The translations under genes and the position numbers were made by a program. Below the pieces are notes generated by a model. The model was not told where the DNA came from, did not search any database, and worked only from the letters and a program-made list of their open reading frames with translations. From Prostheceraeus crozeri (Eukaryota; Platyhelminthes; Polycladida; Euryleptidae): DNA of 64,000 bases. Every line of letters starts with the position of its first letter. Within the stretch, counting starts at the first letter, position 1. The DNA lies in NCBI GenBank assembly GCA_907163375.1, contig CAJQUW010011498.1, forward strand, positions 232,069 through 296,068. The letters run 5' to 3'. Below are positions 2,820-57,910 of this stretch, piece after piece.

Positions 2820-5800
2820 GTAAATCTGATTAACGTTTTCGTTCATGTACAAGTATTGACAACAACTAACGAATTGATTGATTAATGCCGAGTTTGCCTT
2901 CCTGACGAGGAGTTCACTGTCAACCTCTGTCGTCCGAAATCGTAGCAGGTCGCAACTAGCGTTGCAACGGAGAGCGATTTCACTGCCAAGTGGATAGTGA
3001 ATATCTCGTTTACATAAAGATAGAGGCAAGTTGGCAGGAGAAGTTCTAGCTTAACTTGAAGGCCTGTTGATTATAAAATTTGTTTTAAATAAATATAGGA
3101 GAGCAAGAAGTCGCGTCTTGTCTCTCAATAGCTGCTTGCGAGTTTCCGAACAAATGTAGAGAAATTGCAGATTTGTGATTTTCAACAAGATGTGTCATCA
3201 ATTCGGCGCATCTATAATTCAGTGTCACATGGAAAGCTTTTCAAAAATTGATTTTATTGTTGGTCTTGGCTTATGCTTGCCAACCCAAGTAATATGTTTA
3301 TTTTAGACGATGGCATGTTTTACAAAGAATTATATGAACGTTTTTCCGTACACCTTGTTTATTTATAATGATTGGAAAGACTAACATTTTCGAGAAAACT
3401 TAAGCGCAATGACCTGAATTCTTCAAATCCGAAGAATGGTGGCAATCGGAACATTTTGAAGGAATTCACAGCAATCCGCAAGCGACGCACGACTATTTTT
3501 ATCTCTGCAAGGCATTAAAAATTTCTTTTTGCCCACTTAGTAAGCTCCTGCGTGTGCCTTTGTTTTGAATCAGTCTTCACTTCTAGCAAAGTGACACGCT
3601 TAAACAATCTAATTCTGTAGTTAGTCTAGAGCGGATATAAATCCATCCCAGCCATAGGATGCAATGGTAGCAAACGACAGAGATTGACATTTATATTCGT
3701 CTTTGACTTGTGTGATTGGACAAGTGCGCGCATTGCATAAGTGGCTCGTATCCGCGAACCCACGAATATCAGCGGTCAGATTGTAGGTAAATTTTCAAGT
3801 GAGAGGCACCTATCTTTGACTCAATTTATTTTAGTGGCAAATTCGTCAAATGGATATATTATTCACACCGTTCGACTCTTCACGATCTAAATTTACCCGA
3901 CCATGTACGTTTAATGTGTTGTCAATGTTCTAGTTCGTCAGAAATCAAGCTTGAATTTGCATCACGTTCAATGGAAAATTGATCTTCTTGCCCCTCGGGA
4001 CTAGTTCTGGTCTTGACCATCAGTATTGAGGAAACTCATCTCTAGACCGAAATACGCAGACAATGCAATTTATCTCTGTGAACGCAACCTACCAAAGAAC
4101 ATCATGGCTAGCGCATTGGCAGAGTAGATGCAAAGCAATACCATCATGGACATCTGGCGATCACAGACTTCCAGGTAGAGATTATTGACTGATGCAGATC
4201 ACCGATGGATACCGTACTAAGCTTTTAGAAGCCAGTCATATCGAAGAACGAAGACTAGCACTCAATCGAAGACGTGGAACAACCGGACGCTGAACGTGTC
4301 TAATTATGTGGTGACAGCATTCGGTGGGCAGCTAGAAATAGCGCCGAAGTGTGAAACGTGTTCCGTTCCTAGTTTGTACTAGCAGGACAATGCAACAAGA
4401 ACGTCTTCTGGTTGGGGCGGTGATAGTGGGTCAGTTCGGGGTATGCGGTGTTGATGCTCATATCATCACGAATGCCGCCGATTTGACCATGTGCTCAACA
4501 GACATTTGCTCCAACTTTTGAAAACCCTTCCCGTGGTTCAGGTCACGTCGTTGAAAGCAAGGTGTTCAAAGGCACCTGCTAACAGATACTACGTGAAATT
4601 AACAATTTGAGTTTTATGAAATTGATTTTTTGAAATCCGTGTTAATAACATTATTGCTTGAAGTTCTTTGCTACTGCATTCATAAATAAGAAAAAACACC
4701 ATCTTCATCAACGAGCGCTTTCGTCCGTTTTATTTCATGTTGAACGCGGTAATATAAAAATATGCGACATGACGATGTTAACACAAAAGTTCAATAGTCA
4801 CCAAAACAGACGTTAAGTGAACAAGATATCTTTCTGAACACAAAGGTCAGGTGCATACCTTTTCATTCACAATGTCTCGTAGAAGGACAAAAATAGCTGG
4901 AAATTGCGAGAACAGAAAGCAATCTTGAGGCGATCCAACGCGTCATCAACATTACAAAAACACATTGAAGAGGACGAACGATCGCCCTGCATGCTGGCTG
5001 ATTGGAGCGCGGTCGACAACACAGCGGCTTGTGCTGTGAAGCCAATTAGGAGCATGCTCACGAATTCTGTCACAAAGCCGCTACTGCTGCTACACATTTC
5101 AGTAAGAGCGAAGAAACTTTATTGAAATGATGGACCAATGTCGCTACTCAATAGAGAATTGTATCAAAAATATTTCGTTCTGTCTTGCTCACTGATCAAA
5201 CTGGCAGTCTCGTCGGATAAGATGTGCACCGGATTTCAGAGTCAGCCGGAATTTGTTTTTTTCAAAATGAGTCAAAAACCCGCTCGCATTTTCATCACAT
5301 TCAAGCGCTATTGTTTTACGCAGGACCGATATTTATTGCTCTTTTAACTTGGTAATGTTATTGATAGTAAGATTTCTTTTCCGATTCAGAACGAAGTTCA
5401 TTTTCTCATCTTCATATGTAGGCCATATGGTTGAAGATATATCAATCAACGGATCTACATGAAAATATCATGCAGAAGGATTGTGATCCTTAACTATCAT
5501 TAAATAAGAAGGACCATTGATTCTTCAACTGAATGTCTCAGCAAACCAACTGGATATAATCACATTTGATGCAAAACGATTGATTAATCATTTTTCCATT
5601 GTGTAATAAATTACAAGCGGTCTGTATCAACTCTCCATACGGATAACAGAAACGATGCTTTATTTTCAACTTTTCATTATGGATTCAGATTGTTCAAATT
5701 CGGTGTTTCCCTAGTTGCAAGGATGTTTCCAGAAAGTATTTCCAGTTCCTTGTCGGTCACCGCTCTGACTGACCAAGTGACAGGGCAACTATCGAGGATC

Positions 5801-11161: not shown

Positions 11162-14100
11162 ATGTAATAAGCAGCTGTGAAGTGATTCGAATCCTTGTGC
11201 AGTTGGATGTGTGTGTAATAAGCAGCTGTGAAGTGATTCGAATGCTTGTGCAGTAGGATGTGTGTGTAATAAGCAGCTGTGAAGTGATTCGAATGCTTGT
11301 GCAGTAGGATGTGTGTGTAATAAGCAGCTGTGAAGTGATTCGAATGCTTGTGTAGTAGGATGTGTGTGTAATAGGCAGCTGTGAAGTGATTCGAATGCTT
11401 GTGCAGTTAGATGTGTGTGTAATAAGCAGCTGTGAAGTGATTCGAATGCTTGTGCAGTTAGATGTGTGTGTAATAAGCAGCTGTGAAGTGATTCGAATGC
11501 TTGTGCAGTTAGATGTGTGTGTAATAAGCAGCTGTGAAGTGATTCGAATGCTTGTGCAGTTAGATGTGTGTGTAATAAGCAGCTGTGAAGTGAGTCGAAT
11601 CTTGTGCAGTAGATGTTGTGTGTAACAGCTGTGAAGTGATTCGAATGCTTGTGCAGTTAGATGTGTGTGTAATAAGCAGCTGTGAAGTGATTCGAATGCT
11701 TGTGCAGTAGGATGTGTGTGTAATAAGCAGCTGTGAAGTGATTCGAATGCTTGTGCAGTAGGATGTGTGTGTAATAAGCAGCTGTGAAGTGATTCGAATG
11801 CTTGTGCAGTAGGATGTGTGTGTAATAAGCAGCTGTGAAGTGATTCGAATGCTTGTGCAGTAGGATGTGTGTGTAATAAGCAGCTGTGAAGTGATTCGAA
11901 TGCTTGTGCAGTAGGATGTGTGTGTAATAAGCAGCTGTGAAGTGATTCGAATGCTTGTGCAGTAGATGTGTGTGTAATAAGCAGCTGTGAAGTGATTCGA
12001 ATGCTTGTGCAGTAGATGTGTGTGTAATAAGCAGCTGTGAAGTGATTCGAATGCTTGTGCAGTAGATGTGTGTGTAATAAGCAGCTGTGAAGTGATTCGA
12101 ATGCTTGTGCAGTAGGATGTGTGTGTAATAGCAGCTGTGAAGTGATTCGAATGCTTGTGCAGTAGGATGTGTGTGTAATAAGCAGCTGTGAAGTGATTCG
12201 AATGCTTGTGCAGTAGGATGTGTGTGTAATAAGCAGCTGTGAAGTGATTCGAATGCTTGTGCAGTAGGATGTGTGTGTAATAAGCAGCTGTGAAGTGATT
12301 CGAATGCTTGTGCAGTTGGATGTGTGTGTAATATGCAGCTGTGAAGTGATTCGAATGCTTGTGCAGTAGGATGTGTGTGTAATAAGCAGCTGTGAAGTGA
12401 TTCGAATGCTTGTGCAGTTAGATGTGTGTGTAATAAGCAGCTGTGAAGTGATTCGAATGCTTGTGCATAAGGATGTGTGTGTAATAAGCAGCTGTGAAGT
12501 GATTCGAATGCTTGTGCAGTAGGATGTGTGTGTAATAAGCAGCTGTGAAGTGATTCGAATGCTTGTGTAGTAGGATGTGTGTGTAATAGGCAGCTGTGAA
12601 GTGATTCGAATGCTTGTGGATGTGTGTGTAATAAGCAGCTGTGAAGTGATTCGAATGCTTGTGCAGTAGATGTGTGTGTAATAAGCAGCTGTGAAGTGAT
12701 TCGAATGCTTTGTGCAGTAGGATGTGTGTGTAATAATCAGCTGTGAAGTGATTCGAATGCTTGTGCAGTAGGATGTGTGTGTAATAAGCAGCTGTGAAGT
12801 GATTCGAATGCTTGTGCAGTAGGATGTGTGTGTAATAAGCAGCTGTGAAGTGATTCGAATGCTTGTGCAGTAGGATGTGTGTGTAATAAGCAGCTGTGAA
12901 GTGATTCGAATGCTTGTGCAGTTAGATGTGTGTGTAATAAGCAGCTGTGAAGTGATTCGAATGCTTGTGCAGTAGGATGTGTGTGTAATAAGCAGCTGTG
13001 AAGTGATTCGAATGCTTGTGCAGTAGGATGTGTGTGTAATAAGCAGCTGTGAAGTGATTCGAATGCTTGTGCAGTAGGATGTGTGTGTAATAAGCAGCTG
13101 TGAAGTGATTCGAATGCTTGTGCAGTAGGATGTGTGTGTAATAAGCAGCTGTGAAGTGATTCGAATGCTTGTGCAGTAGGATGTGTGTGTAATAAGCAGC
13201 TGTGAAGTGATTCGAATGCTTGTGCATAGGATGTGTGTGTAATAAGCAGCTGTGAAGTGATTCGAATGCTTGTGCAGTAGGATGTGTGTTTAATAAGCAG
13301 CTGTGAAGTGATTCGAATGCTTGTGCAGTAGGATGTGTGTGTAATAAGCAGCTGTGAAGTGATTCGAATGCTTGTGCAGTAGATGTGTGTGTAATAAGCA
13401 CTGTGAAGTGATTCGAATGCTTGTGCATTAGATGGGTGTGTAATAAGCAGCTGTGAAGTGATTCGAATGCTTGTGCAGTAGGATGTGTGTGTAATAAGCA
13501 GCTGTGAAGTGATTCGAATGCTTGTGCAGTAGGATGTGTGTGTAATAAGCAGCTGTGAAGTGATTCGAATGCTTGTGCAGTGGGATGTGTGTGTAATAAG
13601 CAGCTGTGAAGTGATTCGAATGCTTGTGCAGTAGGATGTGTGTGTAATAAGCAGCTGTGAAGTGATTCGAATGCTTGTGCAGTAGGATGTGTGTGTAATA
13701 AGCAGCTGTGAAGTGATTCGAATGCTTGAGCAGGTAGATGTGTGTGTAATAAGCAGCTGTGAAGTGATTCGAATGCTTGTGCAGTAGGATGTGTGTGTAA
13801 TAAGCAGCTGTGAAGTGATTCGAATGCTTGTGCAGTAGGATGTGTGTGTAATAAGCAGCTGTGAAGTGATTCGAATGCTTGTGCAGTAGGATGTGTGTGT
13901 AATAAGCAGCTGTGAAGTGATTCGAATGCTTGTGCAGTAGGATGTGTGTGTAATAAGCAGCTGTGAAGTGATTCGAATGCTTGTGCAGTTAGATGTGTGT
14001 GTAATAAGCAGCTGTGAAGTGATTCGAATGCTTGTGCAGTAGGATGTGTGTGTAATAAGCAGCTTTGAAGTGATTCGAATGCTTGTGCAGTAGGATGTGT

Positions 14101-17100
14101 GTGTAATAAGCAGCTGTGAAGTGATTCGAATGCTTGTGCAGTAGGATGTGTGTGTAATAAGCAGCTGTGAAGTGATTCGAATGCTTGTGCAGTTAGATGT
14201 GTGTGTAATAAGCAGCTGTGAAGTGATTCGAATGCTTGTGCAGTAGGATGTGTGTGTAATAAGCAGCTGTGAAGTGATTCGAATGCTTGTGCAGTAGGAT
14301 GTGTGTGTAATAAGCAGCTGTGAAGTGATTCGAATGCTTGTGCAGTAGGATGTGTGTGTAATAAGCAGCTGTGAAGTGATTCGAATGCTTGTGCAGTAGG
14401 ATGTGTGTGTAATAAGCAGCTGTGAAGTGATTCGAATGCTTGTGCAGTAGGATGTGTGTGTAATAAGCACTGTGAAGTGATTCGAATGCTTGTGCAGTAG
14501 GATGTGTGTGAATAAGCAGCTGTGAAGTGATTCGAATGCTTGTGCAGTAGGATGTGGTGTAATAACAGCTGCACTTTGAAGTGATTCGAATGCTTGTGCA
14601 GTAGGATGTGTGTGTAATGAGCAGCTGTGAAGTGATTCGAATGCTTGTGCAGTAGGATGTGTGTGTAATAAGCAGCTGAGAAGTGATTCGAATGCTTGTG
14701 CAGTAGGATGTGTGTGTAATAAGCAGCTGTGAAGTGATTCGAATGCTTGTGCAGTAGGATGTGTGTGTAATAAGCAGCTGTGAAGTGATTCGAATGCTTG
14801 TGCAGTAGGATGTGTGTGTAATAAGCAGCTGTGAAGTGATTCGAATGCTTGTGCAGTAGGAGTTATGTGTGTGTAATAAGCAGCTGTGAAGTGATTCGAA
14901 TGCTTGTGCAGTAGGATGTGTGTGTAATAAGCAGCTGTGAAGTGATTCGAATGCTTGTGCAGTAGGATGTGTGTGTAATAAGCAGCTGTGAAGTGATTCG
15001 AATGCTTGTGCAGTAGGATGTGTGTGTAATAAGCAGCTGTGAAGTGATTCGAATGCTTGTGCAGTAGGATGTGTGTGTAATAAGCAGCTGTGAAGTGATT
15101 CGAATGCTTGTGCAGTAGGATGTGTGTGTAATAAGCAGCTGTGAAGTGATTCGAATGCTTGTGCAGTAGGATGTGTGTGTAATAAGCAGCTGTGAAGTGA
15201 TTCGAATGCTTGTGCAGTAGGATGTGTGTGTAATAAGCAGCTGTGAAGTGATTCGAATGCTTGTGCAGTAGGATGTGTGTGTAATAAGCAGCTGTGAAGT
15301 GATTCGAATGCTTGTGCAGTAGGATGTGTGTGTAATAAGCAGCTGTGAAGTGATTCGAATGGCTTGTGCAGTTGGCTGTGTGTGTAATAAGCAGCTGTGA
15401 AGTGATTCGAATGCTTGTGCAGTAGGATGTGTGTGTAATAAGCAGCTGTGAAGTGATTCGAATGCTTGTGCAGTAGGATGTGTGTGTAATAAGCAGCTGT
15501 GAAGTGATTCGAATGCTTGTGCAGTAGGATGTGTGTGTAATAAGCAGCTGTGAAGTGATTCGAATGCTTGTGCAGTAGGATGTGTGTGTAATAAGCAGCT
15601 GTGAAGTGATTCGAATGCTTGTGCAGTAGGATGTGTGTGTAATAAGCAGCTGTGAAGTGATTCGAATGCTTGTGCAGTAGGATGTGTGTGTAATAAGCAG
15701 CTGTGAAGTGATTCGAATGCTTGTGCAGTAGGATGTGTGTGTAATAAGCAGCTGTGAAGTGATTCGAATGCTTGTGCAGTAGGATGTGTGTGTAATAAGC
15801 AGCTGTGAAGTGATTCGAATGCTTGTGCAGTAGGATGTGTGTGTAATAAGCAGCTGTGAAGTGATTCGAATGCTTGTGCAGTAGGATGTGTGTGTAATAA
15901 GCAGCTGTGAAGTGATTCGAATGCTTGTGCAGTTAGATGTGTGTGTAATAAGCAGCTGTGAAGTGATTCGAATGCTTGTGCAGTAGGATGTGTGTGTAAT
16001 AAGCAGCTGTGAAGTGATTCGAATGCTTGAGCAGGTAGATGTGTGTGTAATAAGCAGCTGTGAAGTGATTCTAATGCTTGTGCAGTAGGATGTGTGTGTA
16101 ATAAGCAGCTGTGAAGTGATTCGAATGCTTGTGCAGTAGATGTGTGTGTAATAAGCAGCTGTGAAGTGATTCGAATGCTTGTGCAGTAGGATGTGTGTGT
16201 AATAAGCAGCTGTGAAGTGATTCGAATGCTTGTGCAGTAGGATGTGTGTGTAATAAGCAGCTGTGAAGTGATTCGAATGCTTGTGCAGTAGGATGTGTGT
16301 GTAATAAGCAGCTGTGAAGTGATTCGAATGCTTGTGCAGTAGGATGTGTGTGTAATAAGCAGCTGTGAAGTGATTCGAATGCTTGTGCAGTAGGATGTGT
16401 GTGTAATAAGCAGCTGTGAAGTGATTCGAATGCTTGTGCAGTAGGATGTGTGTGTAATAAGCAGCTGTGAAGTGATTCGAATGCTTGTGCAGTAGGATGT
16501 GTGTGTAATAAGCAGCTGTGAAGTGATTCGAATGCTTGTGCAGTAGGATGTGTGTGTAATAAGCAGCTGTGAAGTGATTCGAATGCTTGTGCAGTAGGAT
16601 GTGTGTGTAATAAGCAGCTGTGAAGTGATTCGAATGCTTGTGCAGTAGGATGTGTGTGTAATAAGCAGCTGTGAAGTGATTCGAATGCTTGTGCAGTAGG
16701 ATGTGTGTGTAATAAGCAGCTGTGAAGTGATTCGAATGCTTGTGCAGTAGGATGTGTGTATAATAAGCAGCTGTGAAGTGATTCGAATGCTTGTGCAGTA
16801 GGATGTGTGTATAATAAGCAGCTGTGAAGTGATTCGAATGCTTGTGCAGTAGGATGTGTGTATAATAAGCAGCTGTGAAGTGATTCGAATGCTTGTGCAG
16901 TAGGATGTGTGTGTAATAAGCAGCTGTGAAGTGATTCGAATGCTTGTGCAGTAGGATGTGTGTGTAATAAGCAGCTGTGAAGTGATTCGAATGCTTGTGC
17001 AGTAGGATGTGTGTGTAATAAGCAGCTGTGAAGTGATTCGAATGCTTGTGCAGTAGGATGTGTGTGTAATAAGCAGCTGTGAAGTGATTCGAATGCTTGT

Positions 17101-19592
17101 GCAGTAGGATGTGTGTGTAATAAGCAGCTGTGAAGTGATTCGAATGCTTGTGCAGTTAGATGTGTGTGTAATAAGCAGCTGTGAAGTGATTCGAATGCTT
17201 GTGCAGTAGGATGTGTGTGTAATAAGCAGCTGTGAAGTGATTCGAATGCTTGTGCAGTAGGATGTGTGTGTAATAAGCAGCTGTGAAGTGATTCGAATGC
17301 TTGTGCAGTAGGATGTGTGTGTAATATGCAGATTGTGAAGTGATCGAATGCCTTGTGCATGGAATGTGTTGTAATATCAGCTGTGAAGTGATTCGAATGC
17401 TTGTGCAGTAGGATGTGTGTGTAATAAGCAGCTGTGAAGTGATTCGAATGCTTGTGCAGTAGGATGTGTGTGTAATAAGCAGCTGTGAAGTGATTCGAAT
17501 GCTTGTGCAGTAGGATGTGTGTGTAATAAGCAGCTGTGAAGTGATTCGAATGCTTGTGCAGTAGGATGTGTGTGTAATAAGCAGCTGTGAAGTGATTCGA
17601 ATGCTTGTGCAGTAGGATGTGTGTGTAATAAGCAGCTGTGAAGTGATTCGAATGCTTGTGCAGTAGGATGTGTGTATAATAAGCAGCTGTGAAGTGATTC
17701 GAATGCTTGTGCAGTAGGATGTGTGTGTAATAAGCAGCTGTGAAGTGATTCGAATGCTTGTGCAGTAGGATGTGTGTATAATAAGCAGCTGTGAAGTGAT
17801 TCGAATGCTTGTGCAGTAGGATGTGTGTGTAATAAGCAGCTGTGAAGTGATTCGAATGCTTGTGCAGTAGGATGTGTGTATAATAAGCAGCTGTGAAGTG
17901 ATTCGAATGCTTGTGCAGTAGGATGTGTGTGTAATAAGCAGCTGTGAAGTGATTCGAATGCTTGTGCAGTAGGATGTGTGTGTAATAAGCAGCTGTGAAG
18001 TGATTCGAATGCTTGTGCAGTTAGATGTGTGTGTAATAAGCAGCTGTGAAGTGATTCGAGTGCTTGTGCAGTAGGATGTGTGTGTAATAAGCAGCTGTGA
18101 AGTGAATCGAATGCTTGTGCAGCAGGATGTGTGTGTGTAATAAGCAGCTGTGAAGTGATTCGAATGCTTGTGCAGTAGGATGTGTGTGTAATAAGCAGCT
18201 GTGAAGTGATTCGAATGCTTGTGCAGTAGGATGTGTGTGTAATAAGCAGCTGTGAAGTGATTCGAATGCTTGTGCAGTAGGATGTGTGTGTAATAAGCAG
18301 CTGTGAAGTGATTCGAATGCTTGTGCAGTAGGATGTGTGTGTAATAAGCAGCTGTGAAGTGATTCGAATGCTTGTGCAGTAGGATGTGTGTGTAATAAGC
18401 AGCTGTGAAGTGATTCGAATGCTTGTGCAGTAGGATGTGTGTGTAATAAGCAGCTGTGAAGTGATTCGAATGCTTGTGCAGTAGGATGTGTGTGTAATAG
18501 GCAGCTGTGAAGTGATTCGAATGCTTGTGCAGTAGGATGTGTGTGTAATAAGCAGCTGTGAAGTGATTCGAATGCTTGTGCAGTAGGATGTGTGTGTAAT
18601 AAGCAGCTGTGAAGTGATTCGAATGCTTGTGCAGTAGGATGTGTGTGTAATAAGCAGCTGTGAAGTGATTCGAATGCTTGTGCAGTAGGATGTGTGTGTA
18701 ATAAGCAGCTGTGAAGTGATTCGAATGCTTGTGCAGTTAGATGTGTGTGTAATAAGCAGCTGTGAAGTGATTCGAATGCTTGTGCAGTAGGATGTGTGTG
18801 TAATAAGCAGCTGTGAAGTGATTCGAATGCTTGTGCAGTTAGATGTGTGTGTAATAAGCAGCTGTGAAGTGATTCGAATGCTTGTGCAGTAGGATGTGTG
18901 TGTAATAAGCAGCTGTGAAGTGATTCGAATGCTTGTGCAGTAGGATGTGTGTGTAATAAGCAGCTGTGAAGTGATTCGAATGCTTGTGCAGTAGGATGTG
19001 TGTGTAATAAGCAGCTGTGAAGTGATTCGAATGCTTGTGCATTAGGATGTGTGTGTAATAAGCAGCTGTGAAGTGATTCGAATGCTTGTGCAGTAGGATG
19101 TGTGTGTAATAAGCAGCTGTGAAGTGATTCGAATGCTTGTGCAGTAGGATGTGTGTGTAATAAGCAGCTGTGAAGTGATTCGAATGCTTGTGCAGTAGGA
19201 TGTGTGTGTAATAAGCAGCTGTGAAGTGATTCGAATGCTTGTGCAGTAGGATGTGTGTGTAATAAGCAGCTGTGAAGTGATTCGAATGCTTGTGCAGTAG
19301 GATGTGTGTGTAATAAGCAGCTGTGAAGTGATTCGAATGCTTGTGCAGTAGGATGTGTGTGTAATAAGCAGCTGTGAAGTGATTCGAATGCTTGTGCAGT
19401 AGGATGTGTGTGTAATAAGCAGCTGTGAAGTGATTCGAATGCTTGTGCAGTAGGATGTGTGTGTAATAAGCAGCTGTGAAGTGATTCGAATGCTTGTGCA
19501 GTAGGATGTGTGTGTAATAAGCAGCTGTGAAGTGATTCGAATGCTTGTGCAGTAGGATGTGTGTGTAATAAGCAGCTGTGAAGTGATTCGAA
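11162..19592. repeat. 51-bp minisatellite array, about 165 copies, 8.4 kb
   Basis: The unit is 51 bp, running from gtaataagcagctgtgaagt through gattcgaatgcttgtgcagt to aggatgtgtgt. Because 51 is a multiple of 3, the minus strand stays open over many units and translates as a 17-residue repeat (AQAFESLHSCLLHTHPT). This is an artefact of periodicity, not a gene. Copies are highly homogeneous, with variants in the spacer (taggatg, ttagatg, tagatg) and clustered variants (three consecutive gtgtata units at 16741-16870). Each unit carries the palindromes CAGCTG and ATTCGAAT. The array lies wholly in the last malectin intron. Confidence 0.97.
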
Positions 19593-19599
19593 AGCTTTG

Positions 19600-25105: not shown

Positions 25106-26110
25106 GTAAAACCTCCAATAGAGCGCCATCTGTAATGGAACGCCACCTGCAATAGAACGCCACCTGCAATAGAACGCCACCTGCAATAGAACGCCACCTG
25201 TAATAGAACGCCACCTGTAATAGAACTCCACCTGCACTAGAATGCCACCTGCAAAAGAACGCCACCTGCAAAAGAACGCCACCTGTAATAGAACGCCACC
25301 TGCAATGGAACGCCACCTGCAATAGAACGCCACCTGCAATAGAACGCCACCTGTAATAGAACTCCACCTGCACTAGAATGCCACCTGCAAAAGAACGCCA
25401 CCTGCAAAAGAACGCCACCTGTAATAGAACGCCGCCTGTAATAGAACGCCACCAGCAATAGATCGCCACCAGCAATAGATCGCCACCAGCAATAGATCGC
25501 CACCAGCAATAGATCGCCACCTGCAAAAGAATGCCGCCTGTAATAGAATGCCACCTGCAAAAGAATGCCGCCTGTAATAGATCGCCACCAGCAATAGATC
25601 GCCATCTGCAATAGAATGCCACCTGCAAAAGAATACCGCCTGTAATAGAATGCCACCTGCAAAAGAACGCCACCAGCAATAGATCGCCACCAACAATAGA
25701 TCGCCGCCTAAAATAGATCGCCACCAGCAATAGATCGCCACCTGCAAAAGAACGCCACCTGCAATAGATCGCCACCTGTAATATAACTCCACCAGCAATA
25801 GATCGCCACCTGCAAAAGAATGCCGCCTGTAATAGAATGCCACCTGCAAAAGAATGCCGCCTGTAATAGAATGCCACCTGCAAAAGAACGCCACCTAAAA
25901 TAGATCGCCACCAGCAATAGATTGCCACCTGTAATATAACTCCACCAGCAATAGATCGCCACCTGCAAAAGAATGCCGCCTGTAATAGAATGCCACCTGC
26001 AAAAGAATGCCGCCTGTAATAGAATGCCACCTGCAAAAGAACGCCACCTAAAATAGATCGCCACCAGCAATAGATTGCCACCTGCAATAGAACGCCACCT
26101 GTAATAGACC
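25106..26110. repeat. 17-bp minisatellite array, about 58 copies, with a 153-bp higher-order repeat
   Basis: The unit is gccacctgcaatagaac (17 bp) with many variants (ccagcaatagatc, cgcctgtaatagaat, cacctgcaaaagaac). Three units make 51 bp, so all frames stay open, giving spurious minus-strand frames of up to 337 codons. At 25771 and 25924 the same nine-unit string, including the rare gtaatataac variant, recurs at a 153-bp offset, showing a higher-order repeat. The array starts after accgtaaaacctccaatag, and a lone related unit lies at about 27512-27540. Confidence 0.95.
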
Positions 26111-26255: not shown

Positions 26256-26401
26256 CTACACCTTTTAATGTCTATTTCAGATGTTTCCAATTGAATTTCA
26301 GATATCTTCAAACTTGTGACTGTTGATAGATATCTGAAATTCAATTAGAGAAATCTGAAATCCATCTGGAACTGACTGAAATAGACATTGAAAAGGTGTA
26401 G
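26256..26401. repeat. Foldback (inverted-repeat) element, 146 bp
   Basis: The left arm (ctacaccttttaatgtctat ... gaatttcagatatc) and right arm (gatatctgaaattcaat ... atagacattgaaaaggtgtag) are imperfect reverse complements around a loop of about 15-20 nt. It is a small foldback MITE or hairpin. No coding content. Confidence 0.75.
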
Positions 26402-28988: not shown

Positions 28989-29979
28989 CAGTCAACTCCC
29001 GCTTATCCGCCACCATCGGTGAAATCACTTTTTTTGGCGGATAAACGAAATTATTGTTCAATTCATCAAATATTCTATTTTCCTTGGTACTGCATTAGAA
29101 AACAACTCTGGCTACCTAGCGTATCTCAAGCTCATTTCTGGACGATAGGCGTATAGGCTAGAAACATGTAATGGAGGCAACAGATTATGTACACGCACAT
29201 TACTATTGACTATATAAGGATTGGTCTTTTAACACTTAGAGAAGAAGTCAGCAATTTTCTTTTGTGTTGCATGGTGTTGAGATAAAACAACAATTCACTC
29301 AGCTGCATGAGAGATTTGACATCGTCCTCACTAGCCAGCGGATTATTCTCAAAGTATTCAATCATCGTTGACAGTGAATCACGAGCTCGTTAGGATGTAA
29401 TGGGCTCTTTTTCTGACTCATTGACGCTGCCACAATTTTCCTCCTCATCTGAAAATATCACCGGTACGTCCTCTTCGGCATAATTATTTTCAGTTTCAGT
29501 TGCATTGTCTATCTCACAAAATTCGTCGGGTGTCAAGATGTCAATAATATTGAAGATTGATTTCATTCTGTCAAAAACATTACCTCTCAAAACAGGCGTT
29601 GGGGATTCATTTTCTTCCGAACTATTCGGCGAAAGTACGCCGATGTGACTCCAGCAGTTTTGAATCGTCTTTTCACTAATTGAATCCCATGCGATCTTAC
29701 TGAACATGATTGCTTCCTTCAAGGTGATATCAGGGGTATTATCATCTGCCATTACAACATACTGACTCAGTTGTGACTGGCGGTAGAAAGCCTTGAAATT
29801 TTTTAATGATCCCGCAAGGTTGCAATGAGGAAATCATGTTTGGAGGCAGAAAAATAAGTTCAATATGAGGCAGTTGAGGGCAACAGTGACTTGTCGCATT
29901 ATCCAAGAGAAGTAATATTTTCTTGTTCTCAGCAACGAAGCAATTGCATTCAAGTCCCGTAGGCATTTAGTCCCGTGTA
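28989..29979 (-). mobile_element. Decayed pogo/Tigger-type transposon remnant
   Basis: CAGTCAACTCCCGCTTATCC, directly after TA (28987-28988), has the form of a Tigger/pogo terminal repeat, with its own short inverted echo (ggcggataa) about 30 bp inside. A minus-strand transposase remnant lies at 29390-29966. The partner terminus is absent: homology switches to a hAT MITE at about 29980, so the 5' part of the element was lost. Confidence 0.65.
29390..29966 (-). pseudogene. Tigger/pogo-family DDE transposase, C-terminal fragment
   Basis: Two minus-strand frames joined by a frameshift near 29745 encode the end of a CENP-B/Tigger-type DDE_1 transposase. The first contains KKILLLLDNATSHC, with the second catalytic Asp, and IELIFLPPNMISSLQP. 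The second (from 29752) contains ITLKEAIMFSKIAWDSISEKT and NCWSHIGVL, the family's helical tail with the W-----TI-NCW-H-G motif, then an acidic C-terminus. After SLQPC the expected Asp-Gln of the third catalytic motif is missing (SLQPCGIIKKF), so the copy would be inactive even without the frameshift. The N-terminal DNA-binding domain is absent. Confidence 0.82.
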
Positions 29980-34932: not shown

Positions 34933-36204
34933 CTAATGTTGAGAAGAAATCACTTTTATTCCAGAAATCATTATAAGAAAGTACAAAACAAGTAAAATAC
35001 AAAACTTAATGAGCTCATTCTCCAACTCGTAAGTCTCTGAGCTCGAGGACGTGCACATGAAATCTTGCGGTATGTTGAGATGCCCGAACACAGATTTTAT
35101 CACAAGGGGAATAGATCCTTCCTCCACTATTCCCTGAAGGTATACCACTCGCACTACTCGCCGGACAGCTGACTTTAGTTTCGACCAGACATTCTCAATT
35201 GGGTTAAGTGGAGGGGAGTATGGTGCCAAACGGAGAATCTGCGCTCCAGTTCCTTCCAGTGCTTCCTCTATGCGAGAATGACATGGTGTGTTGTCACATA
35301 CTACTATGAGATTATTCACACTTTTCCTTTGTTTAACCATCCATTCAGTACCAAGGAAATCCAATCATTGCACGCAAGACTGCGATAAGCACCGATCGTC
35401 TCAGTCATGTGCACAATTCCTTCGCAGGAAATCACCCCAATGACGTGGAGGTTAGGTCCACGCGTATATGGCCTATCTTGCACGGCACGGATACCCTTGC
35501 GTGACCAGCCTTGAGCCTGTCTCGTAAATGAATTGAAACTTGTTTCATCTATCCAAATTACTTCTTTCCCCTCTTGGATGAAAGCGTTTAACTCTGGACG
35601 TCGTTTCTTCTAGCTTGCTTGCTCCCTTCCGTATTCATTGTCACACTGTGATGATGGAGTTTCTTTATGGTATAAACATGTCCGTCCATGTAGCTCCCAA
35701 TAGTTGAAATTACCAAATTTAGTTTAAAGCGTTCACGCATAAAGTCCTAGAATAGGCGCAACGTTACTTCGGGATCTCCTTCTACCTGACTGAGCAGAAT
35801 TTCCAGTTGGCCATCAGAAAGGTACTTCCGTTTGTATCCACCTCTCACTGTCCTGCTCGTCTTTCCCGATCGAACCCAACATGTCTTGTATTTGACGTTG
35901 AGTTGGTTTTCTGAACTTCTCCAATCTCCTCCGTGATCAGCACATTCTACTTATTCTCTGTCGGAATTCAGGTACGCATCGTTCATATTGCCGATGTTCT
36001 ACTGTTTCTATATCTTCAATGGTCTCTCAACACTATGAACACAAAGGATGATTTACTCCCAAGAGCAACACAGTCTTCGTGTAAAAAATTAAAACAAGGC
36101 ACTGATATTCTTGTTAAGGTACCCGAAAGCATAGTACGAAGGCAAATTGCACAGTTATCCGACATTTTCATAATTGAACAATGTGTCTGAAACTTGATTG
36201 CCAA
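34933..36204 (-). pseudogene. Element A transposase: N-terminal RING finger + HTH + DDE, broken
   Basis: Read on the minus strand with frameshifts. From 36204 a short frame has SDNCAICLRTM and VPCFNFLHEDC, the first half of a RING-H2 in which one His is Asn; the last Cys pair is lost. The next pieces, CADHGGDW and KYKTCWVRSG, match the helix-turn-helix part of element B. Then come STIGSYMDGHVYTIKKLHHH and FIQEGKEVIWIDETSFN, with the first catalytic Asp. After another break the frame at 34933-35364 has NLIVVCDNTPCHS, with the second Asp, and LAPYSPPLNPIENVWSKLKS, with the catalytic Glu. The Asp-to-Glu spacing is 32 residues by my count (DD32E). At least three frameshifts or stops make it a pseudogene. 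Homologous throughout to the intact frame of element B. Confidence 0.85.
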
Positions 36205-38530: not shown

Positions 38531-39470
38531 GTGCAGGCCGGTCTGAAGAACACCAGTGGTGCAGAACAGCCTGAAGAACAACGGTGGTGCAGACCAGCCT
38601 GAACAACACCGGTAGTGCAGACCAGCCTGAAGAACACCGGTGGTGCATGCCGGCCTGAAGAACAACGGTAGTGCAGACCAGTCTGAAGAACAACGGTGGT
38701 GCATGCCGGCCTGAAGAACAACGGTAGTGCAGACCAGCCTGAAGAACATCGGTGGTGCAGACCAGCCTGAAGAACAACGGTGGTGCAGACCAGCCTGAAG
38801 AACACCGGTGGTGCAGACCAGCCTGAAGAACACCAGTGGTGCAGGCCGGTCTGAAGAACACCGGTGGTGCAGACCAGCCTGAAGAACACCGGTGGTGCAG
38901 ACCAGCCTGAAGAACACCAGTGGTGAAGGCCGGCCTGAAGAACACCGGTGGTGCAGACCAGCCAGAAGAACATCGGTGGTGCAGACCAGTCTGAAGAACA
39001 TCGGTGGTGCAGACCAGCCTGAAGAACAACGGTGGTGCAGACCAGCCTGAAGAACATCGGTGGTGCAGACCAGCCTGAAGAACAACGGTATTGCAGACCA
39101 GCCTGAAAAACACCGGTGGTGCAGACCAGCCTGAAGAACACCGGTGGTGCAGACCAGCCTGAAGAACACCGGTGGTACAGACCAGCCTGAAGAACAGCGG
39201 TGGTGCAGACCAGCCAGAAGAACAACAGTGGTGCAGACCAGTCTGAAGAACACCAGTGGTGCAGACCAGCCTGAAGAACAACGGTGGTGCAGACCAGCCT
39301 GAAGAACACCGGTGGTGCAGACCAGCCTGAAGAACAACGGTATTGCAGACCAGCCTGAAAAACACCGGTGGTGCAGACCAGTCTGAAGAACACCAGTGGT
39401 GCAGACCAGCCTGAAGAACACTGGTGGTACAGACCAGCCTGAAGAACAGCGGTGGTGTAGACCAGCCTGA
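38531..39470. repeat. 28-bp minisatellite array, about 33 copies
   Basis: The unit is gaagaacaccggtggtgcag accagcct (28 bp), with variants caccagtgg, caacggtgg, catcggtgg and ccggcctg. Because 28 is not a multiple of 3, each frame cycles through all three phases. All three minus-strand frames are nevertheless open for about 300 codons, since the unit has no stop in any phase. These frames are spurious. The array is G+C-rich in an A+T-rich region. Confidence 0.95.
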
Positions 39471-39474
39471 AAAA

Positions 39475-40592: not shown

Positions 40593-41135
40593 GATTTTAA
40601 GATGAGGAATTTTTTGATAAATGCTGACAGACAGTGTGAGCTATCACTCAGCTTCATCATGATGTAAAGATTTTAAGATGAAGAATTTTTTGATGAATGC
40701 TGACAGACAGTGTGAGCTATCACTCAGCTTCATCATGATGTAAAGATTTTAAGATGAAGAATTTTTTGATGAATGCTGACAGACAGTGTGAGCTATCACT
40801 CAGCTTCATCATGATGTAAAGATTTTAAGATGAAGAATTTTTTGATGAATGCTGACAGACAGTGTGAGCTATCACTCAGCTTCATCATGATGTAAAGATT
40901 TTAAGATGAAGAATTTTTTGATGAATGCTGACAGACAGTGTGAGCTATCACTCAGCTTCATCATGATGTAAAGATTTTAAGATGAAGAATTTTTTGATGA
41001 ATGCTGACAGACAGTGTGAGCTATCACTCAGCTTCATCATGATGCAAAGATTTTAAGATGAAGAATTTTTTGATGAATGCTGACAGACAGTGTGAGCTAT
41101 CACTCAGCTTCATCATGATGTAAAGATTTTAAGAT
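40593..41135. repeat. 76-bp tandem repeat, about 7 copies
   Basis: The unit runs ttttaagatgaagaattttt, tgatgaatgctgacagacag, tgtgagctatcactcagctt, catcatgatgtaaaga. Copies are nearly identical; the first differs at a few bases (gaggaa, ataaatg). Each contains TGAG-CTATCA-CTCA and gatgaa/ttcatc inverted motifs that can fold. Confidence 0.95.
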
Positions 41136-42036: not shown

Positions 42037-42660
42037 ATGTAGAATCTTGTCAAACCCCGCGGTCGGAATGATATGAACTCATTTTATTCATAAAAGGATG
42101 CGGAATTAGCCACTTCTGTTTTGTTTCTTCTTCTTCTGATGGGAAATGGGACAGTATGCTCAGATTCATTCCCACAAACGATGGTAATGATGGAAATAAT
42201 CAACATCAAAACTCAATACCTCAGCATTTCTGCGTGTGCACTTGGGCGGGCAATGATGGCAGTCCTAAACGAAATTGACGACATATGCACACATACATTT
42301 CTTCAACGACGAAACATCCTTTCTATCCACAGAATTAGATTGTTCAAGCGCGTCGGTTGACTTTCAGTATCAAGAAATCATCCTTAGTCAAAATGTCATG
42401 CTGATAATTGTATGACAGAATAATGTCTTTCCTATAATATTGGAATTATCATAGATTCTACCATAGTCATTAGTTATTTTTCCATAGGATATAAAAGAAT
42501 AAATTTCTTTAATTTCATAGTTTTACTATCAAAGTGTGAAAATACTCAGTTATTTTCACAGTTGATGTGAGAGCATGCTCTCTGGCAATATCACTGCTGA
42601 TTTGATTCATTTTTAGAAAATAAGTTGATATCCATACATGCCATACTACACCATTTCCAG

Positions 42661-42871
42661 GTGTAATATAGAAGAGGTCAATTGTAATATCGAACTGTAA
42701 ATTTGTAATATAGAAATCGATCATGCAATATCGAAAATGTCAAATCTATAATTGTAATATCGAACTGTAAATTTGTAATATAGAAATCCATCATGCAATA
42801 TCGAAAATGTCAAATCTAATATAGAAATCTACAATTGTAATATCGAATTTCAAAATGTGATATAGAAGATA
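42661..42871. repeat. Left subterminal repeat array of element B
   Basis: Alternating tgtaatatagaaatc and tgtaatatcgaac/gcaatatcgaaaatgtcaaatc motifs, with a direct repeat of about 80 bp (near 42680 and 42756). They are plausible binding sites for the element's transposase, by analogy with subterminal repeats of other DNA transposons. Confidence 0.8.
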
Positions 42872-43696
42872 TCACTTTCCTGCTACACTTTCCCTCTTGT
42901 AGGAGCCACGTTTGGTAGTAATCTTTACAACACCCTCAGTTGACACAGCTCCTAGCATGTGGACGTTTGGGCCACGGGATGCTGGCAATGTGCTCACTGC
43001 TCTTGTACCCTTTCTTGATCTTCCAACTGTTCTGCGGCAAAACAAATTCACATTGGATTCATCCATCCAGATGATCTCTTTACCGTCTCTAATAAATTGA
43101 TTCAGTTTCTCGAGATATTCTTTTCTTAGATTTTTGTTGTTAGTTGAGTTCATATTGCATGGCATGTGATGCGTCTTCTTAATTTTCAAACATTTTGCTT
43201 CAAGAGCATTGGCAATTGTTGAGATACACACCTTGATACCATGAGAATGAGTCAATTTCTCCTTGATCTGCTTCAAAGAAATTTCACAGTCATCCTCAAT
43301 CCATCGGGCCATTTCCTCGAAGACAGCTTCCGTAATCAATTTCGGCTTTTTACCACCCTTTCCTGGTGTTTCAACTTCACCAGAACGAATCCAGGAGTAG
43401 GCTGTCTTGTACTTAATGCCGAGAGTGTTTGCCAGACTGATCCAGTTTTCTCCGCGATTTGCACATTCAATAATTCTCTTCCTGTCTTCCCTTTGTGGGG
43501 TTGCGTTCTTCCTTCTATTGAATACCATTAGATCTTCGTTGGGTACATCTTCATCGCATGTAGGACATTTGTTGTTCATTTCTACATATGGAACAATGCA
43601 CTTGGAATGGTAGAGGTGCATGCAGTTAGAAGAGAATTGGAGCTGTCCGCGGGTCATTAATTTCTTACAAATCTTGCATTCCTCTGTGACTTTCAT
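42872..43696 (-). CDS. RING-H2 / helix-turn-helix / DDE transposase, C-terminally truncated
   Basis: A 274-residue frame with no internal stops. Residues 7-47 form a complete RING-H2: C7-x2-C10-x14-C25-x1-H27-x2-H30-x2-C33-x10-C44-x2-C47, a fold usually found in ubiquitin ligases. Residues about 65-180 resemble the tandem helix-turn-helix of IS630/Tc1-type transposases (ECANRGENWISLANTLGI, YKTAYSWIRSGEVETPGKGG). The DDE domain starts at EIIWMDESNVNLF, with catalytic Asp at about 212, and goes on to GPNVHMLGAVSTEGVVKI. It stops at GSYKRESVAGK, before the second Asp and the Glu, immediately at the left arm. The missing half is present in element A. As it stands the protein cannot be a complete nuclease; it may be a deletion derivative or a DNA-binding relative. 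Fusion of RING and transposase is seen directly; ligase activity is inference. Confidence 0.88.
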   Translation of the reverse strand: MKVTEECKICKKLMTRGQLQFSSNCMHLYHSKCIVPYVEMNNKCPTCDEDVPNEDLMVFNRRKNATPQREDRKRIIECANRGENWISLANTLGIKYKTAYSWIRSGEVETPGKGGKKPKLITEAVFEEMARWIEDDCEISLKQIKEKLTHSHGIKVCISTIANALEAKCLKIKKTHHMPCNMNSTNNKNLRKEYLEKLNQFIRDGKEIIWMDESNVNLFCRRTVGRSRKGTRAVSTLPASRGPNVHMLGAVSTEGVVKITTKRGSYKRESVAGK

Positions 43697-43897
43697 GATT
43701 CCGTGATCGCTTGTAAGTTTAAAAAACAGTGACTTTTGTAAGCTGATGAAATAATATTGTACTAAACTTCACATTTAAAATTCAAATGATTAAATCGTGT
43801 TTCAACATGTCTATGATGCAACATATTCGTATACACAAAAAGGTACAGTGCAGACTACTTTAACAGTACAACAGTTCACTCATTCATCACCAATTAT

Positions 43898-44339
43898 GAC
43901 ATCGATATTACAAATGTAGATTTCTATATTACATCTGATATCTTCTATATCACATTTTGAAATTCGATATTACAATTGTAGATTTCTATATTACATCTGA
44001 TATCTTCTATATCACATTTTGAAATTCGATATTACAATTGTAGATTTCTATATTAGATTTGACATTTTCGATATCACATTTTGAAATTCGATATTACAAT
44101 TGTAGATTTCTATATTACATCTGATATCTTCTATATCACATTTTGAAATTCGATATTACAATTGTAGATTTCTATATTACATCTGATATCTTCTATATCA
44201 CATTTTGAAATTCGATATTACAATTGTAGATTTCTATATTAGATTTGACATTTTCGATATTGCATGATGGATTTCTATATTACAAACTTACAGTTCGATA
44301 TTACAATTGACCTCTTCTATATTACACATGGAAATTGTG
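43898..44339. repeat. Right subterminal repeat array of element B
   Basis: About five tandem units of roughly 61 bp (gatttctatattacatctga tatcttctatatcacatttt gaaattcgatattacaattg ta), with an alternative unit containing agatttgacattttcgatat. It is complementary in sequence to the left array and about twice as long. Confidence 0.85.
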
Positions 44340-44341
44340 TA

Positions 44342-52086: not shown

Positions 52087-52608
52087 CACAGAATTAGACA
52101 GGTCGTCTCTTCTTCCGTTTGACTAGAAGGGAAACATTGGAACATGCAACGTTATTGAAATGGCACAATCTCCTGACTAAATACCATAGCAATCGAACAA
52201 TGAGCAGCCAGTTCAACATTAAACACGCCAAATTGTGCAAAGTTTCAGTGACTGTTATCAATCGGATCACACAGCAAAGAGACACAGACGATGTCAAGTT
52301 CTACAGAGAAGTTTGTGAACGTTTTTTCATGCGCCTGCTAACTTTTTTTAAAATGATCGGAGGGCCCACCATTATCGAGAAGACTTTTGCGCAATGATCC
52401 GAATTCTTCGAAACTGAAGGAGTCGTGGCGATCGGAGCATTTTGAAGGAATTCAGAGCAATCCGCAAGCCACGCACGACTATTTTTCCTATCTCTGTAAG
52501 GCATTAAAAATTTCTTTTTGCCCACTTATTAAGTTCCTGTATGTGCCATCTGTTTGAATCAGCTTGCACTTCTAGCAAAGTGATACGATTAAACAATCTA
52601 ATTCTGTG
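52087..52608. mobile_element. hAT-type MITE, 522 bp, near-complete copy
   Basis: Terminal inverted repeat CACAGAATTAGA/TCTAATTCTGTG. Flanking 8-mers gcgcctcc (52079-52086) and gcgcctct (52609-52616) match in 7 of 8 positions, as for hAT (or P-type) insertions. Other copies: 60435-60953 (complete), 29980-30017 plus 32901-33310 (split), 3390-3619 (partial). No transposase. A minus-strand frame MGKKKFLxPYRDRKNS is shared by three copies and may be a transposase relic. Confidence 0.85.
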
Positions 52609-56893: not shown

Positions 56894-57664
56894 GTTACTC
56901 AAATCAAAATTTAGTAAGGATGGATTTTCACAAGGAGTCGAACGACATCAGCTTGAGACGTACCTGTTTGCGTTACGCCTACCATTACTTGCTGACTGTG
57001 GTCAACTCAAGGGTTGCAGTGTTGCGAAGAATTGAGAAGGAATTCAGACTTGTCTGACTAGCATTTTGCGTACGACGCTATGCAACAGCTAACTTAAGTG
57101 CTCAGCGGCTGAACCTAGTCTTAGCACTCCTTTCCTGGTAATTACAATTGCTTCCAAGAACTGACGTTACATTGCATGCCAGTGCCCAAAACTTTGATGA
57201 CAATGCAGAGAGCTCCTCAAAACACTCCATCATCAAGATGCCATGTATGGAAAATCATCGGGGTAGGTGCAGATATATGCGTAATAGAGTCTTGTAAGAC
57301 TAATGCAGATAGAAGATGCCCCAATGGATCTCCCTGCTGGACGCATGAGGAAAGTGTTCAGAGACGACATGACTGCAGCAACAATCCGAATGACAATAGT
57401 TCTGAGAAATCCAATGAATTTAACAAGGAATGCTGACCAAGGAATGATGTGTCTGAGCGCACATCATTATTCAACGTAAACTCCTGGAGATGCCGTAGAT
57501 ATCATTGTTGCTGTGTGGTATCATTGCGGTCTGATATTTTAGACATTGCATTCAATTGAAAAAATATGAACAGCAAGATATCACTGTTGTCTGCCTCTTA
57601 GATAGAGAATTCAATAGAAAAACAACGGAGTTGTGTAGCAAATTCATTCAAAGCTCAAGCCGGC
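56894..57664. other. Unassigned stretch upstream of a Tc1 fragment
   Basis: The open frame 57176-57436 is not recognised. The sequence is more G+C-rich than its surroundings and may be decayed Tc1 transposase sequence, but I could not align it. Confidence 0.3.
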
Positions 57665-57910
57665 ATAAGAACTTTGAAATGGGCCGCTTGCTCACCAGAC
57701 CTCAATCCAAAAATTGAAAGTGTCTGACGCCTACTGAAGCGTGGTGTGAGTCGATCAGTTCTTCCTGGAGATGGTCTTTCTCGACTTGAAGCTTTGCTAA
57801 TGCAAGTGTGGAAGAATTTAGATCAACAAGTAATCATCCTCCTGATCGAAAGCATGCCTTCCCGAATTCGACGAATGATTGAACTTTCTGGTGAAGTTAC
57901 GACATATTAG
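57665..57910 (+). pseudogene. Tc1-type transposase, C-terminal fragment with the catalytic Glu region
   Basis: The frame reads IRTLKWAACSPDLNPKIESV, an in-frame tga where Trp is expected, then RLLKRGVSRSVLPGDGLSRL and VWKNLDQQVIILLIESMPSR, ending at tag 57908-57910. SPDLNP-IE-VW is the third catalytic motif of DD34E Tc1 transposases; here one residue (Lys) is inserted before IE. The upstream catalytic domain is not readable. Same family as the fragment at 53971-54084. Confidence 0.82.

Follow-up and report, generated by a model that had tools for sequence, protein, structure and literature searches.

The window, the whole stretch of 64 kb analyzed here from contig C9541 of a genome of 2.05 Gb, harbors at positions 42649..44339 (minus strand) a DNA transposon, hereafter referred to as element B. 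Its tips are of the type CAC[C/A]ATTTCC, and it is flanked by a TA on both sides (42647..42648 and 44340..44341) with a C outward of each TA, as in a C-TA-G target; duplication of this TA was demonstrated on the relatives described below. The ends form inverted repeats of 125–128 nt with complementarity of 90–99% and carry 27 copies of a 12-bp iteron, TGYRATATMGAA, all of which point inward: nine at the 3′ element end relative to the gene (42662..42867, plus strand) and 18 at the 5′ end (43922..44326, minus strand), the latter in a 62-bp tandem unit. The iterons are spaced at 20–21 or 42 bp, plus a single gap of 29. No copy of the iteron was found in the rest of the window. An earlier note on this DNA had taken terminal inverted repeats and TA duplications as marks of a real element; both proved genuine, and with their iterons the ends exceed plain inverted repeats.

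The transposase reading frame of element B (42872..43696, minus strand) encodes 274 aa and is cut off after the region of the first catalytic Asp. At its N-terminus lies a RING-H2 finger (residues 7–47; 43556..43678, minus strand) with ligands C7, C10, C25, H27, H30, C33, C44 and C47, which was matched by the Pfam profile zf-RING_2 at residues 6–47 (6e-07, 30.1 bits versus a cut-off of 27.3). It is followed by a helix-turn-helix (HTH) region at residues 67–165 (43202..43498, minus strand), with matches to HTH_28 (1.7e-04), HTH_32 (7e-05) and HTH_23, each under its own Pfam cut-off, and by the first part of a DDE_3 domain at residues 208–271 (42884..43075, minus strand), where the first catalytic Asp, D212, is found in the motif WMDESN. 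The DDE_3 match (4.3e-06) covers profile positions 2–64 of 146, and its score of 27.1 is slightly under the cut-off of 28.6. The earlier note had called the finger a textbook RING-H2. This description stands for the eight ligands and the profile score, but an Asp follows the last Cys in place of a basic linchpin residue, and Tyr is present where many E3 RINGs have Trp. The order of RING, HTH and start of a DDE domain in one minus-strand frame, also claimed there, was confirmed by the Pfam profiles and recurs across the families described below. An AlphaFold model of the window protein computed from the single sequence had a pLDDT of 44.6, too low for use.

Comparison with relative L006 revealed that approximately 1.28 kb is gone from the window copy directly after residue 272, the junction containing about five filler bases; blastn blocks 1119–2317 and 3597–3721 bound the deletion. 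Past residue 272 the window copy runs into the opposite subterminal repeat, where the reading frame ends. As a result of this internal deletion the window copy is devoid of the second Asp and the Glu. Element B is thus a DNA transposon with both ends, and a non-autonomous internal-deletion derivative.

Several other features of the window are related to mobile elements. Element A (35018..36177, minus strand) is a second RING-DDE transposase, decayed and frameshifted, with a RING piece at 36064–36174. It belongs to another RING family, nearest to the F2 family (68% tblastn identity to residues 24–59 of the L022 frame); its ends are weak. A 140-bp MITE at 26259..26398, sitting between TA dinucleotides, has tips CTACACCTTTT of the same tip class and TATTTCAGA-like iterons, and is likely a non-autonomous passenger of the same transposon group. 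Fragments resembling a DDE_1 transposase (29390–29752, minus strand, under the cut-off) and a Tc1-like transposase (57602–57904, plus strand) are also present. Tandem arrays occupy positions 11163–19597 (51-bp x 166), 25111–26108 (17-bp x 59), 38531–39471 (28-bp x 34) and 40593–41135 (76-bp x 7). Several long, repetitive ORFs run through the first three of these.

A separate observation concerns a mitochondrial COX1 sequence (L071, C6227), which was aligned with chain 5z62_A, presumably human COX1. TGA was found at Trp sites in eight of ten cases; of 30 ATA codons, 25 fell on Ile/Val/Leu sites and three on Met; and AGA occupied Ser/Thr sites in nine of 14. TGA is accordingly read as Trp, and ATA apparently as Ile. 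Two informative AAA codons disagreed. Before the aligned part begins, the frame is already open over about 60 codons. We take this codon pattern to fit the echinoderm or flatworm mitochondrial code.

Relatives of the element B transposase were looked for by searching the entire genome in six frames, which produced at least 141 matches. Seventy loci were examined, 30 extracted directly by this search (including L001, the window copy) and 40 further ones picked from its matches for their length or long frames; two pairs overlap (L015/L019 and L017/L018), leaving 68 distinct places. All eight RING ligands were present in 37 of the 70 rows (L015 and L019 being one place), and at nine loci (L003, L022, L024, L030, L031, L033, L039, L040 and L051) the eight ligands and the complete D-D-E triad were found in one open frame, with L051 also having a short in-frame deletion ahead of the first Asp. 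The remaining rows were truncated, mutated or RING-less. Full-length copies with both Asp and Glu, which the earlier note had suggested looking for, therefore do exist.

Clustering at 72% identity of the 53 rows with ORFs of at least 240 aa resulted in 12 clusters, seven with a RING (B and F2–F7) and five without. Pairwise identity of family representatives was 30–64% overall and 39–64% among the RING families. The zf-RING_2 profile was over its cut-off in all seven RING-family proteins scanned. DDE_3 was over its cut-off, with values from 1.3e-26 to 6.5e-19, in L003, L022, L030, L033 and L051, all of which have the DDE domain in one frame; together with the TA duplication this bears out the assignment of element B to the Tc1/IS630 type. 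HTH_32 exceeded its cut-off in L022, L060 and L068, and sub-threshold HTH matches were seen in the window protein and in the remaining six proteins of the scan. Two RING-less sisters had both DDE_3 and HTH_32 over the cut-offs and no RING match.

The truncation of the window copy is the sole point in favor of an accidental join, in which an exon for a RING and a piece of a transposase would share a frame by chance. The same domain order is, however, found in seven families 39–64% identical to each other, five of them have RING and DDE in a single ATG-to-stop frame of about 400 aa, and the ligands are invariant, so that a chance join can practically be dismissed. We regard the RING, HTH and DDE architecture of a single gene as virtually certain.

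In families F6 and F7 the frame stops shortly past the first Asp region, at CGAGGTAAG. In three of five loci (L041, L043 and L046) a continuation beginning with GPNVHLIGA was found downstream, after TTTTTAG or TTTTCAG. The gap is intron-like, bounded by GT and AG, approximately 250 and 80 bp long in F6 and F7, respectively, and located at the same place of the DDE domain, between SRG and GPN; it lies from position 2333 of L043 and from position 2409 of L046 (gene-oriented) onward. We infer that it may be spliced as an intron. In F6 loci L038 and L044 the DDE continuation was not recovered; all that L038 showed at this place was weak similarity to a transposase of a different kind.

A truncated protein that keeps RING and HTH could be a product of selection. 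The half-protein of deleted copies would then act as a repressor, titrating the ends or marking full transposase for destruction; the window ORF, open to residue 274 with RING and HTH kept, and two B copies, L002 and L005, which end at a common stop past the first Asp, are what one would expect of it. On the other hand, among ten B loci compared the deletion of the window copy was found in that copy only, L002 and L005, which also share flanks, are probably one duplication, and a chance truncation would leave an open 5′ part anyway. We consider a selected repressor improbable.

Element ends and insertion sites of the relatives were compared next to those of element B. B, F2–F5 and RING-less G4 have inverted ends that extend over hundreds of bp and are mostly 97–100% alike, the longest being 686 bp (L068), and in G1, G3, G5 and F6 the ends are shorter or match less well; in L038, L046 and L052 inverted ends were looked for and none were found. 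A 21-bp period was the strongest or second-strongest near the 5′ end in all 16 relatives tested, which covered B, F2–F5 and RING-less G1 and G3–G5, with F6, F7 and G2 left out. Most families have the tip CTACAC[C/A][A/T]TTTCCA, whose counterpart is CTACACCTTTTTCA in F6/F7 and CTACACCTTTTTAA in G3/G4. When neither the C nor the TA was assumed, CTA preceded CAC[CA]WTTTCCA in 72 of 75 distinct contexts.

Several loci from different RING families are inserted at an identical CTAG within a single dispersed repeat, which was recognized at one or both flanks of L021, L030, L033, L035, L044, L046, L049 and L070. The unoccupied target, which contains CTAG once, has 2,319 exact copies genome-wide (1,197 forward and 1,122 reverse), and the exact occupied junction of one class has 29 (16 and 13); the control gave 0 in both cases. 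Since occupied copies read CTA-element-TAG and empty copies contain a single CTAG, insertion is accompanied by duplication of TA within CTAG. RING-less L056 and L062 have a common CTAG target, the left flank of which resembles that of RING-family L003, and the RING therefore apparently does not set target choice. Families with and without the RING have a common tip class, iterons of about 21 bp and TA duplication in CTAG.

The window itself contains two copies of the dispersed repeat, one exact and one near, at 52117 and 60465; the CTAG is empty in both. B copies L002 and L005 are located at a CTAG between the arms of a near-perfect palindrome of 75+75 bp. A search for the empty palindrome (901 candidates, of which 40 were scored, giving 80 matches) yielded no match over the whole 154 nt; matches to one arm are common in the genome. 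An Rfam scan of five loci produced nothing above the gathering score, and an ARAGORN scan of nine loci detected no tRNA.

For phylogenetic analysis only HTH and DDE columns were used (331 columns; 27 chosen rows, of which 13 had a RING, nine were RING-less and five were outgroup). The RING rows formed one side of a branch with support of 90/88, implying one change of state. The earlier note had held that related elements lacking the RING would speak against it. Five sister families do lack it, which goes against the claim in part, but all of them fall outside the RING clade, where they do not form one group. In an alternative tree that included poor bacterial rows L075 and L076 the RING rows were again on one side, with support of 85. 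Because support of 90/88 is below the starred level and the outgroup branches are long, one gain is likely rather than proven; that the RING was gained once within the IS630-Tc1-mariner clade would be the simplest reading of these alignments. The spacing between the second Asp and the Glu is 31 in B and 32 in the other measurable RING rows, with the exception of L036 (35, the Glu position being altered), and 33–35 in RING-less sisters.

The RING of L022 has ligand spacing 2-14-1-2-2-11-2, that of a C3H2C3 cross-brace. The eight ligands are invariant in all eight rows of an alignment that covers the seven RING families. The closest solved sequences are those of RNF126, Arkadia, ARK2C and RNF165, whose names are those of E3 ligases or RING finger proteins. 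RING positions that presumably contact the E2 include the one before C2 (C2-1), the Trp, the linchpin after C8 and the Pro of the CPxC motif. At the first of these, every one of the 37 eight-ligand rows carries I, V or L. The linchpin is Arg in 27 of 30 eight-ligand rows outside B, versus Asp or His in all seven B rows. At the usual Trp position none of the 37 rows has Trp; I, V, M or Y is found there. The Pro is replaced by Ala in F5 and by Ser in L007 and L041.

Synonymous sites of the RING are saturated between families (pS of 0.76–0.96 in ten pairs), so that omega could not be computed between families. Nonsynonymous distances among F2–F7 were 0.27–0.44 for the RING versus 0.24–0.59 for the core in the same pairs; where B was one member of the pair they were 0.73–0.94 versus 0.49–0.56, and the RING of B is 27–34% identical to that of other families, less than the core (44–48%). 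Within families, RING omega was 0–0.75 on 0–4 synonymous changes, one pair having zero, and the core was similarly relaxed, as expected of decaying inserted copies. With synonymous sites saturated between families and the eight ligands fixed, the RING appears to have been maintained. Judged from these alignments, it is under constraint across families, with fitness as an E3 that seems to vary among them, and we are confident that it is functional and under selection.

Our main reading, to which we assign a probability of roughly 0.6, is that element B is a deleted member of an IS630-Tc1-mariner clade that gained a RING, and that this RING most likely recruits an E2 and ubiquitylates. The HTH region of the complete enzyme would bind the inward iterons, the two ends would be paired, and the DDE core would cut and join at the TA in CTAG, by analogy with ISY100 and Tc1. 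The RING would most likely recruit a host E2; the targets of ubiquitylation would most likely be the transposase itself or proteins of the insertion site, as with RAG1, and the modification would most likely limit or time transposase activity. Since tip class and CTAG targets are the same in sisters that lack it, the RING is probably dispensable for recognition of ends and target.

Taken separately, action of the RING through ubiquitin, with a putative ligase activity that is plausible from the sequence, is placed slightly below even odds and ahead of a non-catalytic role in contacts or dimers. The latter role would make the RING a structural zinc module for dimerization or protein contacts without ligase activity, like the cross-brace finger of piggyBac. 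The Trp position that is not conserved, the linchpin missing in B and the Pro missing in F5 are in agreement with such a module, and in piggyBac, according to the available text of PMC8086355, transposon ends are bound by the cysteine-rich domain, a cross-brace finger of the PHD-like type. Against a structural module speak the retention of I/V/L at C2-1 and of the linchpin Arg by most rows outside B, and the E3 RINGs that are the closest sequence matches; judging from the RING-less sisters, which have the same tip class and iterons of about 21 bp, end binding probably does not need the RING. We regard the structural role as possible, at odds well short of even. The broader form of the ubiquitin reading, a whole Tc1/mariner-IS630 clade with its own ubiquitin ligase that would bring an E2 to DNA and set turnover or open chromatin, is tentative and somewhat more doubtful than believable.

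The families with and without a RING belong to the IS630-Tc1-mariner (ITm) group, with DD31-32E and DD33-35E triads, respectively: they have a DDE_3-type triad (of which the window copy keeps the first Asp only), TA duplication and an N-terminal HTH. DDE catalysis, TA duplication and an HTH N-terminal to the core are shared with Tc1/mariner, pogo, Gambol, Zator and Sailor; the differences would be the N-terminal RING, the 31–32 spacing and, in several families, iteron-bearing inverted ends of hundreds of bp. Spacings named in the available text of PMC8533490 include DD34E for Tc1, DD34D for mariner and DD34E for Gambol, among others, and the spacing of the RING families is unlike those of the ITm families named there; DD33E is mentioned in the part of PMC8472432 at hand. 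Gambol was considered as a possible carrier of a PHD finger and set aside, there being no mention of this in the accessible text on ITm families. The DDE part had a weak match to Sleeping Beauty SB100X (5.6e-3). No description of a RING-bearing Tc1/mariner element was found among the papers listed from open-licence PMC text, in agreement with the earlier note, which knew of no named family of this kind, and the novelty of the family is provisional.

Bacterial IS630/ISY100 elements are alike in the HTH and DDE_3 core, TA duplication and CTAG preference. Their ends are short and are not known to carry iteron arrays. A tblastn search of a plasmid collection with L022 produced 991 IS630-like records, with 24–31% identity among the 15 matches listed. 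Ten of these 15 start at residue 71, past the RING, which was thus not seen in them; three start at 22 and one each at 5 and 57. Since most of the listed matches start past the RING, we read the RING as a probable addition. No relatives were found by tblastn in viral contigs or prokaryotic genome contigs. A preference of IS630 for CTAG is given in the title of Tenzen & Ohtsubo 1991, as referenced in PMC2170065, the accessible part of which also describes cut-and-paste transposition of ISY100. In Metnase/SETMAR, KRABINER, POGK and POGZ, too, an ITm transposase has been joined to an additional domain; these are, going by the portions of the sources at hand, single host genes, whereas the domain described here moves along with families of mobile elements.

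The target duplication of Chapaev and Transib elements is 4–5 bp, which the TA duplication in CTAG described here does not fit. Neither RAG1 nor Chapaev appeared among Pfam matches of nine proteins at E 0.001, although Pfam may hold no Chapa model. RING-DDE precedents given in the available text of PMC4411706 (2015) are RAG1, whose RING has ubiquitin ligase activity, and two Chapaev subgroups. The same text states that no other known transposable elements encode RING or Chapa domains; this statement is not exhaustive, since RING fingers are reported in proteins of some LTR elements in the part available of PMC3630058. The RING of RAG1 has so far been treated as a property of the Transib/Chapaev line. 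We infer that the families described here acquired theirs independently of RAG1/Chapaev, and a maintained RING in a second, unrelated transposase superfamily would be an independent replicate. With sister families that have or lack the RING and share tip class and CTAG targets, the role of the RING is directly testable. If a clade-borne ubiquitin ligase is real, the combination of RING and DDE would be a recurrent means of recombinase control and not a peculiarity of the RAG lineage. RAG1 and RING-bearing Chapaev resemble the present families as DDE recombinases with an N-terminal RING, but the core here is a DDE_3 of the IS630 kind, the TA in CTAG is duplicated and the protein is about 400 aa long.
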